Assembly: GCA_030531025.1 (NCBI GenBank)
Contig: JAUMTV010000145.1
Span: 1-6,985 of the forward strand
Origin: Turicibacter sp.
Lineage (GTDB): Bacteria; Bacillota; Bacilli; MOL361; Turicibacteraceae
DNA length: 6,985 nucleotides
Direction: 5' to 3'
Position numbers and translations under genes: made by a program. Shown here piece after piece: positions 36-5,569 of the stretch. The number at the start of each line of letters is the position of its first letter. The first letter of the stretch is position 1. The notes under the pieces are model-generated. The model searched no databases and was not told where the DNA came from. It was given only the letters and a program-made list of their open reading frames with translations.

Positions 36-130
36 CATGAAACAAGAAGTATCTATATATAAACAGATAAGTATTCTACATCTAAGGTGGCAAACAAAAA
101 ATACTGATATTCTTTATTTATAAAGACATC

Positions 131-231
131 CTATAGTACAGGGGTCACCTAGCGATTTCTGAAAGAAATCTACTCCTCCGCTACTAGGGCTTAAAAATTT
201 TCTATGAAGAAAATTTATCTGGACTTATATA
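131..231 (-). repeat. Structured ~100-nt dispersed repeat, copy A
   Basis: Read on the minus strand, this begins TATATAAGTCCAGATAA and ends TAGGTGACCCCTG then TACTATAG, the same boundaries as copy B at 5151-5248. It can fold as a closing helix AGTCCAG/CTGTACT (one mismatch), a 9-bp hairpin AAATTTTCT-TCAT-AGAAAATTT (195-216), and a helix CCTAG/CTAGG (184-188 with 148-152). The last encloses a purine-rich GGAGGA segment and a 7-bp hairpin GATTTCT-TTC-AGAAATC (154-170). Helix sequences differ from copy B, but pairing, the TTC loop and the linkers are kept. It lies just upstream of the -10 of the PEBP-family gene, in the opposite orientation. I do not recognise it as a named RNA family or insertion sequence. 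Confidence 0.75.
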
Positions 232-3418: not shown

Positions 3419-3455
3419 AAAAAGGGTTAACGATATATCATCGTTAACCCTTTTT
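3419..3455. terminator. Bidirectional terminator between convergent genes
   Basis: A 16-bp perfect stem, AAAAAGGGTTAACGAT (3419-3434) with ATCGTTAACCCTTTTT (3440-3455), has a 5-nt loop. It gives a T-run on both strands. It starts 11 bases after the nupC stop, and its right arm overlaps the stop codon (3454-3456) of the antiporter, so it serves both transcripts. Confidence 0.92.
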
Positions 3456-4659
3456 AATCTTCTGTATGAAGTAAACGGTCGCTTGTTAATTTGATTCCAA
3501 TCGCACCAATTGGAGCGGTAATTAAAACACTTAAAATGGCAATGGCTTGCATAATCTCTCCGCCTGCAACTCCCATTTGCAGTGGAATAGCTGCTTTAGC
3601 AGATTGTACAGTCGCTTTAGGTAAGTAAGCAATAATGCAAAAGACTCTTTCTTTAAAGGATAGATTCGTTCCGATTAATGAAATAAGCACTCCAAGTGAA
3701 CGAATCGTTAATGAAATAGATAAAATACCTAGTCCAATCCAGAAAAATTCTCCAACAAGTGTTGGATTGATGGCCATTCCCACAAAGGCAAATAAATACA
3801 ACTTTCCCGTTTTCCAAATCGTATTCATTTGATCTAAAATTACTTGAGAACTACTTACGATATAGTTACGAATAAAGAATCCATAAATCATCACTGTTAA
3901 TAATGAATTAAATAATTCAAGATAAAATTGCTTCTCAATGATACGCATCACTAAACATAATCCAAAAGCAATGATTACTTTTCCAAGTGACGATTGAATA
4001 CGTTCAATGATTGGTTTTGAAAGTTTATAAATGATAAACCCCGTTGCAATACTGATGGCAATAGTTAATGGAATCATAAGTAGTTGTACAAGGATTGAGA
4101 TTGTTTCATTATTTGCCTCTTGCGTATAAATACTTAAAAATGTTGTAAACAATGTAATCGCAATCGTGTCATCAGCACTGGCACCAACTAATAACATTTG
4201 TGGGATGGCTTTATCTTCTCCAACACGTCGTTGAATTAAATCAATCATTGAAGGAATTAAGACAGCGGGACTAACGGCAGCAATAATAAACCCTAAAATT
4301 GCTCCTTGAACAAAACTAAAATTAAGCAGTAACATTGCTATAATGGCAATCGTAAATCCTTCCAATGTTGCTGGGACAGCACTTAACAAGACTGCAGGGC
4401 GACCAATTTGTTTCATTTGAGCCAAACTAATTCCAAGTCCGCCAATAAACAATACAGCCACTAGAGCGATATCTTTTAAAGTAGGGGCAATAGCTAAAGT
4501 TACTTCAGGAACAAGGTTTAAAAAGGCTGGACCAATAAACATTCCAAGAAGCATCATCCCTATTAATGAAGGTAACTTAATATACTCAACTAGTTTTCCA
4601 CAATAGTTAGCGAGTACCCCAATAATAATTAAACTAACTACAATTATGATTAATGTCAT
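3454..4659 (-). CDS. Cation:proton antiporter (Na+/H+ exchanger family), fluoride-riboswitch controlled
   Basis: A 401-residue membrane protein with about eleven hydrophobic helices, of the sodium/hydrogen exchanger family (PF00999-type). It starts with a helix and the KLPSLIGMMLLGMFIGP segment (28-44). The AAVSPAVLIPS stretch (127-137) is the broken-helix motif, and GASADDTIAI (159-168) carries the Asp163-Asp164 pair expected in the ion-binding site of electrogenic members. The later KATVQSAKAAIP (349-360) is also family-like. There is no cytosolic TrkA/RCK domain, so it is a bare transport core. Ribosome binding site AGGAGG lies 7 bases before the ATG. Its leader is a complete fluoride riboswitch, so it is probably induced by fluoride. 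The ion carried (Na+, K+, or coupling to fluoride stress) is inferred, not seen. Confidence 0.88.
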   Translation of the reverse strand: MTLIIIVVSLIIIGVLANYCGKLVEYIKLPSLIGMMLLGMFIGPAFLNLVPEVTLAIAPTLKDIALVAVLFIGGLGISLAQMKQIGRPAVLLSAVPATLEGFTIAIIAMLLLNFSFVQGAILGFIIAAVSPAVLIPSMIDLIQRRVGEDKAIPQMLLVGASADDTIAITLFTTFLSIYTQEANNETISILVQLLMIPLTIAISIATGFIIYKLSKPIIERIQSSLGKVIIAFGLCLVMRIIEKQFYLELFNSLLTVMIYGFFIRNYIVSSSQVILDQMNTIWKTGKLYLFAFVGMAINPTLVGEFFWIGLGILSISLTIRSLGVLISLIGTNLSFKERVFCIIAYLPKATVQSAKAAIPLQMGVAGGEIMQAIAILSVLITAPIGAIGIKLTSDRLLHTED

Positions 4660-4687: not shown

Positions 4688-4743
4688 AAAAAAAGACTCC
4701 TACCCTTTAATCCATGACAAAAAAGGATTAAAGAGTAGGAGTC
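4688..4743 (-). terminator. Riboswitch-controlled intrinsic terminator
   Basis: On the minus strand a 19-bp stem (5' arm 4725-4743, 3' arm 4695-4713, one G-U pair) with an 11-nt loop is followed by seven T residues (4688-4694). Its 5' arm includes 4738-4742 (ACUCC), the strand the aptamer uses for its pseudoknot. Aptamer folding and terminator folding are therefore mutually exclusive, predicting transcription read-through when ligand is bound. Confidence 0.9.
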
Positions 4744-4780
4744 ATCAGCTTTCGCGGTTAATGGTGAACTCCATCACCTA
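4735..4780 (-). promoter_or_regulatory. Fluoride riboswitch aptamer (crcB motif)
   Basis: The minus strand shows the fluoride aptamer in order: AGGUGAUGGAGUUCACC, then AUUAACC, then a mini-hairpin GCGAAAGC, then UGAUGACUCCUAC. P1 is GGUGA/UCACC (4774-4778 with 4763-4767). The pseudoknot is GGAGU (4768-4772) with ACUCC (4738-4742). The conserved AACC and CUGAUGAC linkers are present. P3 is extremely short, two G-C pairs closed by a GAAA tetraloop (4748-4755). The aptamer begins a few bases after the predicted transcription start and overlaps the terminator downstream, an ON-switch layout. It controls the cation:proton antiporter at 3454-4659. Confidence 0.93.
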
Positions 4781-4792
4781 TTCGATACTTTT

Positions 4793-4963: not shown

Positions 4964-5167
4964 ATGAAAAGAAATCAATTGATTATTATAATGACGATAC
5001 TATTAAGACTTTTAATGTTTCCATTATATATCATCAGCTTTAATCGTCAACAATTACTTTTATTTGGATTAATTTATTTACTGGACCGTGTGATAAGTGC
5101 TTATACAGGGGGAGTTTTTAGTGAGACACTTGATGCGATTGACCAAAAAGTATATAAGTCCAGATAA
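4964..5167 (+). CDS. Small membrane protein, 3' end formed by a repeat
   Basis: A 67-residue ORF: a basic start (MKRNQ), hydrophobic stretches at roughly residues 5-26 and 31-47, then a short polar tail with FSETLDAIDQ. The ribosome binding site AGGAGAGG (4951-4958) is good, and TAGAAT (4902-4907) is a possible -10 with no clear -35. The last codons (Y-K-S-R-stop) lie inside the conserved left end of repeat copy B, which recurs at copy A. The present C-terminus was therefore probably created by the repeat, and the gene may be a truncated version of something longer. I recognise no family. Confidence 0.55.
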   Translation: MKRNQLIIIMTILLRLLMFPLYIISFNRQQLLLFGLIYLLDRVISAYTGGVFSETLDAIDQKVYKSR

Positions 5168-5248
5168 GTTTTTTACATCGTAAAAAACTTTTAGGCCCTA
5201 CTAATGGAGGAAACATGCTTCGCATGGTAGGTGACCCCTGGACTATAG
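5151..5248 (+). repeat. Structured ~100-nt dispersed repeat, copy B
   Basis: It starts TATATAAGTCCAGATAA, identical over 17 bases to copy A, and ends TAGGTGACCCCTG then GACTATAG. Predicted fold: closing helix AGTCCAG (5156-5162) with CTGGACT (5238-5244), 7 perfect pairs; an 11-bp hairpin AAGTTTTTTAC-ATC-GTAAAAAACTT; and helix CCTAC/GTAGG (5197-5201 with 5227-5231). The last encloses the purine segment TGGAGGAAA and hairpin CATGC-TTC-GCATG (5214-5226). It lies between two small membrane-protein ORFs and supplies the stop codon of the first. The AT-rich first hairpin could also act as a weak terminator. Confidence 0.75.
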
Positions 5249-5250
5249 TC

Positions 5251-5309
5251 TGCCTTGAACTCCCTACCAGTGGAGGAAACATGCTTCGCATGGTAGGTGA
5301 CCCACGGCA
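5251..5309 (+). repeat. Partial third copy (C) of the structured repeat
   Basis: A 42-base module, 5262-5303, matches 5196-5237 of copy B at 40 of 42 positions, offset by 66 bases. It keeps the CCTAC/GTAGG helix, GGAGGAAA segment, CATGC-TTC-GCATG hairpin and GGTGACCC. It lacks the first AT-rich hairpin and the AGTCC/GGACT closing helix; TGCC (5251-5254) with GGCA (5306-5309) might replace the latter. The two differences, both in the TAAT/CAGT segment after the helix, do not disturb pairing. Confidence 0.75.
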
Positions 5310-5377
5310 CAACTATCAAACATTTAGTGTGTTGTGATAAATGTAGATTTTATTTCTGTTTATATATAGATAGCGGA

Positions 5378-5569
5378 ATGAACGAAACAGAATCAAAGAA
5401 ATTTGGTAACCTACTGATGTGGATGGTTGGTTGGATTATGTTAGTTATCATTATATATGCCTATATTCTATTAACCAATTTATCACTGTTCATCATAATG
5501 ATGAGTGGTGAACTAATCGGTAAGGGAATTGAATTTCTTTTAAAGAAGATGAAAGAAAGGTCACATTAG
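5378..5569 (+). CDS. Small membrane protein, function unknown
   Basis: A 63-residue ORF from an ATG at 5378: polar start (MNETESKKFG), a hydrophobic segment at about residues 12-31, a second at about 34-44, and a basic amphipathic tail ending KKMKERSH. The reading frame stays open back to a GTG at 5297 inside repeat copy C, but those 27 extra residues are cysteine-rich and not protein-like. The ribosome binding site is poor (only GCGGA nearby), which lowers confidence. It shares the two-helix layout of the ORF at 4964, separated by the repeats, but clear similarity between them is not evident by eye. Confidence 0.4.
   Translation: MNETESKKFGNLLMWMVGWIMLVIIIYAYILLTNLSLFIIMMSGELIGKGIEFLLKKMKERSH

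Follow-up and report, generated by a model that had tools for sequence, protein, structure and literature searches.

A BOX-like composite repeat of Turicibacter with a folded inner module that is best read as separately mobile

Repeats of the BOX type are a long-established tool for strain typing. Other short repeats of bacteria include REP sequences, which are short and folded and have a GTAG/GGAG tetranucleotide next to the hairpin, the RUP element of pneumococcus, which is of the IS630 type, and the Rickettsia palindromic elements (RPE), which are inserted in coding genes, sometimes in frame, and are larger than the module described below. BOX elements, according to the parts of PMC3049150 drawn on here, are arranged as A-B(n)-C with a boxB that folds largely on its own; the same parts count 17 box modules standing alone in a single genome and report, in Streptococcus suis, one boxB type between two different end pairs. 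The present study suggests that Turicibacter, on whose repeats of this kind no paper was found in the open-licence PMC literature, harbors a composite repeat that is BOX-like in layout and is best read as containing a separately mobile structured module.

The repeat lies in a 6,985-nucleotide stretch of Turicibacter DNA, the whole of which we call the window, and in which a preliminary description had reported three copies (A, B, and C) of a structured element. The features are listed here, R1 being a covariance model of the module, searched with cmsearch.

About 54 to 231, minus strand: carrier A, of the family of carrier B and inverted (sequence and family search; ends exact to within a few bases)
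142 to 189, plus strand: module A, 48 nt (R1, E = 2.1e-4 in 503 kb, outside the training set)
4964 to 5152, plus strand: first part of an interrupted small membrane-protein gene (open frame; the joined frame matches P0001)
5153 to 5366, plus strand: carrier B, MITE-like (family search; the uninterrupted relative P0001 implies the empty form)
5157 to 5163, plus strand: AGTCCAG, 5' half of a proposed closing helix or inner inverted repeat (fold; weak covariation)
5166 to 5190, plus strand: carrier hairpin AAGTTTTTTAC-ATC-GTAAAAAACTT (fold; similar hairpins in other carriers)
5196 to 5237, minus strand: module B, 42 nt, GGGTC...GTAGGG on this strand, with a 6-bp P1, a P2 hairpin, and a 12-nt bulge (R1, training-set member; structure)
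5238 to 5244, plus strand: CTGGACT, the 3' partner of AGTCCAG at 5157 to 5163 (fold; weak covariation)
5262 to 5303, minus strand: module C, 42 nt, complete (R1, training-set member)
5369 to 5569, plus strand: second part of the interrupted small membrane-protein gene (open frame; the joined frame matches P0001)

Read in the sequence, copies A, B, and C are located where the preliminary description placed them, with the linkers and helix changes that it gave, but the elements run beyond its limits, to about 54–231 for A and to 5366/5368 for B. Copy C, which it took to be partial, is a full module like that at 5196–5237 and occupies a second insertion place of carrier B; in another locus (L119 1754–1943, genome G002) this place holds three modules and the first place is empty. 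The compensatory helix pairs are real but are divided between two units: the change of AAATTTTCT/AGAAAATTT versus AAGTTTTTTAC/GTAAAAAACTT belongs to the carrier hairpin, and the other two changed helices are the module's. Thus, rather than a single element of about 100 nt with a three-way junction, we see a carrier and an interchangeable module. The closing helix AGTCCAG/CTGGACT has little support of its own: its right half was recognized in 24 among the 50 rows listed, and one double change (L157, AGTCTAG/CTAGACT) was seen by eye, together with several mismatches.

The carrier runs from TATATAAGTCCAG to CTGTTTATATA in the order TATATAAGTCCAGATAA, hairpin, CTGGACTATAG, tail, CTGTTTATATA; by eye, it has imperfect terminal inverted repeats (TATATAAGTCCAGATAAG vs. 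TATATATAAACAGATAAG), and carrier A ends in TATATAAGTCCAG and, in reverse, TATATATAAACAGATAAG. Carrier B is flanked by TA at 5151–5152 and 5367–5368. When the window frames are joined across it, the whole query aligns to P0001 with 71% identity, and in this one protein-level comparison QKVYIDSG of the joined frame stands against QKV-DSG. Because of this match, carrier B probably broke the small membrane-protein gene and left a TA duplication, the TA pair being, from one inferred empty site, a likely target duplication; at the DNA level, the genomes examined contained no empty site for the gene and one weak homologous match only. In a public 93-aa protein, P0002, an apparent carrier tail lies in frame and runs on into this membrane-protein gene, and another strain thus seems to hold the same broken gene. 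Elsewhere in the window, a fluoride riboswitch aptamer (RF01734, 60.1 bits, 4729–4787, minus strand) precedes a 401-aa membrane-protein gene (3454–4659, minus strand), the product of which is presumably antiporter-like. This aptamer was the only Rfam match in the whole window, and the element region itself (5140–5390) gave nothing to E 10 in the Rfam comparison that the preliminary description had proposed.

The inner module is a structured unit of 42–64 nt that occurs in arrays of one to nine. R1 was built from nine ungapped 42-nt copies in the GGGTC orientation, two of them (B and C) from the window, its training material being Turicibacter and the window only. Copies folded and aligned have a P1 helix of 5–6 bp stacked on a P2 hairpin that is variable in sequence and length, with P1 and P2 parted on the 3' side by a 12-nt bulge, NNNTCCTCCNNN. 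Apparently without coding capacity, the module also lacks terminal inverted repeats: its ends are GGGTC and TAGGG, and its inverted repeat is the internal P1. Covariation was assessed on 103 distinct rows from the best 150 of 223 matches, giving 946 cells at ten pairs. Pairing cells (94.5% vs. 83.7% in shuffles), cells changed on both sides (89 vs. 22.2), and the covariation score (0.295 vs. 0.128) all exceeded every one of 500 shuffles, counts that are flattered by an alignment fitted to the structure and by the relatedness of the rows. Weaker, coarser measures were six double-change pairs, reached by 5 of 500 shuffles, and 18 further pair types, reached by 88. Shifting the pair partners sharply lowered the signal, and in a structure-blind mutual-information analysis (alignment A7, 99 distinct rows) the P1 pair 11–80 came out on top, at about twice the next value. 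A pseudoknot between GGGT and the bulge had no covariation in the alignment, where its columns are nearly invariant. Covariation beyond shuffles bears out the preliminary description of a structured family with compensatory changes. It had read the other strand, of which the complement pairs better on balance: of the 946 cells, 894 are paired in the GGGTC orientation, compared with 868 in the reverse one. If the P1/P2 junction pair is set aside, these figures become 827 and 775 of 843, and at the junction pair itself the order is reversed, at 67 and 93 of 103. On balance, therefore, covariation favors the GGGTC strand without amounting to proof, and is compatible with either RNA or single-stranded DNA.

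The module is present in all five Turicibacter genomes examined: the covariance-model search of relatives, also proposed in the preliminary description, found 12, 112, 41, 27, and 49 matches in G001–G005 (E ≤ 1, up to 150 candidates scored per genome). In 503 kb, mostly stretches picked around matches, R1 made 223 matches at this threshold, 219 of which were grouped into 116 arrays; the remaining four (one in L101, one in L113, and two in L170) were left out of the array analysis. A strict module pattern run across contigs of 84,980 species occurred in Turicibacter sp. UBA7094 only. Matches to R1 were found in six of eight genomes of the order and, under strict filters with at most 16 or 15 candidates scored per genome, the identical six were recovered by R1 across the class (6 of 395) and by R2, trained on 117 copies including six from G006, across the phylum (6 of 392). 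Viral contigs gave no match to two module patterns and one carrier pattern, and blastn with window positions 5140–5320 found no match in plasmids and phages.

The relation of module to carrier is that of a BOX-type A-B(n)-C layout, in which the ends are retained and the middle module is present in 0 to n copies. In a search with window positions 5140–5320, query parts 12–55 and 99–121 adjoin in several G002 loci, and parts 56–98 and 123–165 are variably present; module-free carriers exist, as where G002:62870–62912 directly abuts 62913–62935. A strict test found a recognizable carrier end in 39 of the 116 arrays and both ends in 31, and in no array did both ends have the opposite orientation; it replaces a looser test that had given 59 of 116 with false positives. 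The other 77 arrays have no carrier end, some possibly lying in decayed carriers.

Many solo modules sit instead within transposase genes of the ISL3, IS3, and IS66 families, and Pfam analysis of ten chosen contexts identified seven transposase-like proteins (HTH, DDE, or rve domains) and one PDDEXK_2 protein. These contexts bear on whether the module might be a cis-regulatory RNA or a small RNA family selected for regulation. The strong conservation of the fold would suit such a role, as would one copy that immediately precedes a tRNA-synthetase gene (a GC-rich module at L114 1450–1491, separated by 11 nt from the start codon of a class I enzyme gene that we take to be leuS). However, Rfam holds no match, the contexts listed are mainly MITEs and transposase genes and otherwise varied, and among them we found neither a fixed position upstream of functionally related genes, as for a riboswitch, nor a common regulated gene class; we regard a regulatory RNA as very improbable. 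Since the contexts listed comprise transposase genes, MITEs, and assorted intergenic sites, two of the three options in the preliminary description, a riboswitch and a dedicated noncoding RNA, are unsupported, and its third, a REP/MITE-like structured repeat mobilized in trans, fits best.

Sister copies of IS genes with and without a module at six sites, differing by 44–49 nt, argue that the module moves apart from the carrier. Twelve ISL3 copies fetched from G003 comprise six empty ones (L205–L210), with an open frame of 455–465 aa, and six filled ones (L211–L216), in which an identical 44-nt insert at one codon breaks the frame. Removing the insert in silico opens the frame across the site in each of the six; L215 stops early, where two more modules lie, and L213 and L216 are truncated by the limits of the fetched stretch. 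L212 is a SNP mosaic whose ends resemble L205 but whose middle differs, from which we infer that gene conversion probably spread the insert; precise excision as the origin of the empty copies is then unneeded. Restoration of the frame could also mean that the module is a mini-intron, spliced from mRNA or skipped by ribosomes, so that the interrupted transposase genes stay functional, and one IS3 insertion common to G002 and G005 copies is in keeping with this. Yet G003 also has intact ISL3 copies that can act in trans, the spread is accounted for by gene conversion, modules lie in genes in both orientations, and one four-module IS3 has a 4-nt deletion and looks dead, all of which makes a mini-intron extremely improbable.

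The IS3 copies provide the other five sites. L185 and L190 exceed L181 and L195 by 45 nt at GAAAT^GGAAAATG; L197, compared with L195 in its own genome, is longer at two sites, by 49 nt at GGAAAT^GAATTT and by 45 nt at CAAT^TAG; L180 exceeds L185 by 45 nt at GTTAAC^; and L186 is 48 nt longer than L195 at a site where the flanking bases have changed. At the three cleanest sites (that of L185/L190 and the two of L197), the module has AAT to its left and right. Over all six sites, the left flank is AAT at three and GA, AAC, or AATTA[T/C] at the others, the net gain varies (44, 45, 48, or 49 nt), and at some of them the adjacent sequence is altered by one to a few bases. A similar tendency appears at 34 de-duplicated sites outside carriers, chosen by the looser carrier test, where the module is preceded by A (0.62) and T (0.71) and the linker reads A (0.47), A (0.76), T (0.65), followed by G (0.56) and G (0.50). 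Two abutting modules often read AAT followed by GGG, so that an array junction is itself an AAT^GG-type site; and because arrays have AAT linkers anyway, a 3-bp duplication is indistinguishable from a unit that ends in AAT. Modules occur in ISL3 at two recurrent places, across several subfamilies and species; at one of these places the module keeps the frame in the majority of six copies (L120, L142, L144, L146, L173, and L175, from G002, G004, and G005), fetched by a route that would miss module-free copies. As several IS share one insertion across copies or species, by inheritance or gene conversion, independent events are fewer than the counts.

Some module-bearing IS, such as L180, look dead. 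The IS3 copy at L131 7286–8282 (G002), with four modules, a 20-nt insert, and a 4-nt deletion, is apparently a dead IS gathering inserts. The 20-nt insert is a hairpin, TACCCGCAAGGGGTACGCCG, and constitutes a second mini-insert, which breaks the frame at one fixed place in IS3 orfA (L180 1240–1259, L131 7347–7366, and also L186, L189, L192, L197, L237, and L150); it has a divergent form in L198 and is absent from sisters such as L185, L181, and L195.

The module is also found in an unrelated carrier in another genus. G006, one of three non-Turicibacter genomes of the order, has 21 R1 matches, the best at 34.3 bits with a per-genome E of 3.3e-5 that is, taken alone, modest given the 395 genomes searched. 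By eye, the element around these modules is a MITE about 225 nt long and unrelated to the Turicibacter carrier, which matched 41 times in all; among 30 fetched copies the module is present in 19 and absent in 11, with L247/L248 and L264/L265 printing alike. A PhotoRC-I match covering part of the module in one G006 copy scored 18.5 bits, below the cut-off of 45, and was set aside as not relevant. The G006 subtype recurs in Turicibacter IS3 genes (L131:7561–7604 and L150:4861–4904), with 39 of 45 aligned columns identical and, by eye, a T-A/C-G change in P1. Given that G+C differs between the G006 stretches (46.5%) and the window (31.2%), transfer between genera is possible.

Could such a distribution arise passively? 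A BOX-like repeat born in MITEs might multiply solely by slippage, unequal crossing-over, and re-insertion of circles by homologous recombination, with rare illegitimate entry into IS genes. Tandem arrays of near-identical units (eight at 59-nt spacing in L171 and seven at 61-nt spacing in L131) and gene conversion among ISL3 copies are what it would produce, and the parts of PMC3049150 drawn on here invoke mechanisms of this sort for the arrays of BOX. It is at odds with single insertions in unrelated IS3, ISL3, and IS66 genes that have a common target tendency, and with presence and absence in the unrelated G006 MITE, and we consider it unlikely. Collectively, copy counts, covariation, carriers with 0 to n modules, empty and filled sisters, the target tendency, and the G006 MITE favor a mobile repeat of two levels, a TA-inserting non-autonomous MITE as carrier and a separately mobile folded module, which we hold to be probable. 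It is weakened by the lack of a mover among our findings, Y1 loci that are devoid of modules, the variable gain, the AAT at three of six sites, and the weak strand bias.

In the two-level model, the outer carrier would be a non-autonomous MITE that inserts at TA, and the inner module would be inserted in units of about 45 nt, made up of GGGTC...GGG and roughly three bases of linker, frequently AAT. It would prefer AAT^G(G)-like sites, with near-exact junctions; as joined modules would recreate AAT followed by GGG, new modules could land beside old ones, which would explain the head-to-tail arrays, and slippage could enlarge these further. Modules would hitchhike whenever the host MITE or IS moves, and gene conversion would carry them between IS copies. 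The conserved fold with its short patches, together with the absence of coding capacity and of terminal inverted repeats, suggests that the folded strand, of single-stranded DNA or RNA, is recognized by a recombinase acting in trans. The fold, the family, the filled and empty carriers and IS genes, and the junctions are observations, to which the model adds this recognition and the action in trans.

The nature of this enzyme is a separate matter. One form of the two-level reading is REP/RAYT-like: an HUH Y1 transposase (TnpA) would move the folded single-stranded module, with GGAG as the REP tetranucleotide. The CCC strand does carry GGAGGA at the 5' foot of the hairpin, the module is without terminal inverted repeats and makes little or no target duplication, and Y1 transposases (PF01797) occur in four of the five Turicibacter genomes (in G001 as a fragment only). 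However, G004 gave no Y1_Tnp match despite its 27 module matches, although loss after spread is possible; the five full Y1 loci have their own, unrelated end hairpins and no linked modules; and covariation on balance favors the opposite strand. A replication-strand bias is expected for single-strand transposition, and here it is weak: with the origin set at dnaA and gene orientation as a confounder, 42 arrays have GGGTC on the lagging template and 71 have it on the leading one (p = 0.008), the numbers outside carriers, as split by the looser test, being 24 and 33 (p = 0.29). We regard a Y1 mover as doubtful. A bolder proposal makes the module, at about 45 nt, a mobile element complete in itself, which moves folded and single-stranded, as DNA or RNA, with recombination or reverse-transcription machinery of its own that is as yet undescribed, entering unrelated MITEs and IS genes in two genera; this we put forward tentatively, as a possibility rather than an expectation. 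A group I intron of Turicibacter with a GGAGG homing site, reported in an IStron survey (PMC4227781, in the part drawn on here), is a different element, and the likeness of that site to the GGAGGA of the CCC strand is probably chance.

Compared with described systems, the module has partial parallels. Like RPE, it is a short repeat within coding genes, but many of its insertions break the frame, and its identified hosts are mostly transposases. The carrier resembles RUP, a TA-inserting MITE, in its imperfect terminal repeats ending in TATA and its likely TA duplication, and differs in housing interchangeable modules. With REP/REPIN sequences moved by RAYT (TnpAREP) the module shares a short, folded, high-copy, noncoding form and, on its CCC strand, a GGAG-like tetranucleotide beside a hairpin; it is larger, has the 12-nt bulge, and forms head-to-tail arrays, and no Y1 gene is linked to it in the loci examined or matched in G004.

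A TATCTAC common to BOX and the module's bulge had raised the idea of homology. On one BOX copy (L268, from the S. pseudopneumoniae satellite phage record MK448497.1, found with a boxB probe from the part of PMC2444020 drawn on here), R1 and R2, run with filters off, gave top scores of 0.8 bits (E 2.9) and 1.2 bits (E 1.9), in both cases outside boxB, and the idea was dropped; by eye, moreover, a single boxB is two hairpins in a row, unlike P1 around P2.

In layout, pneumococcal BOX is nevertheless the closest known system: as far as the parts of PMC3049150 drawn on here describe the boxA-boxB(n)-boxC elements of Streptococcus pneumoniae and S. suis, they too have MITE-like ends, 0 to n tandem structured modules of about 45 nt, and high copy number. 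What sets the Turicibacter repeat apart is the module fold, with P1 around P2 and a 12-nt bulge, and the solo modules inside IS genes that have matched module-free sisters. The Turicibacter module, of the same kind as the BOX middle modules whose origin and movement are at issue, has been caught in and out of unrelated carriers at base resolution. Sister IS copies with and without it make mobility of its own and recognition of its fold directly testable, in a gut commensal. If the fold is the substrate, the module would be among the smallest mobile elements known to us, housed in a composite that, of the systems compared here, is arranged most like BOX.
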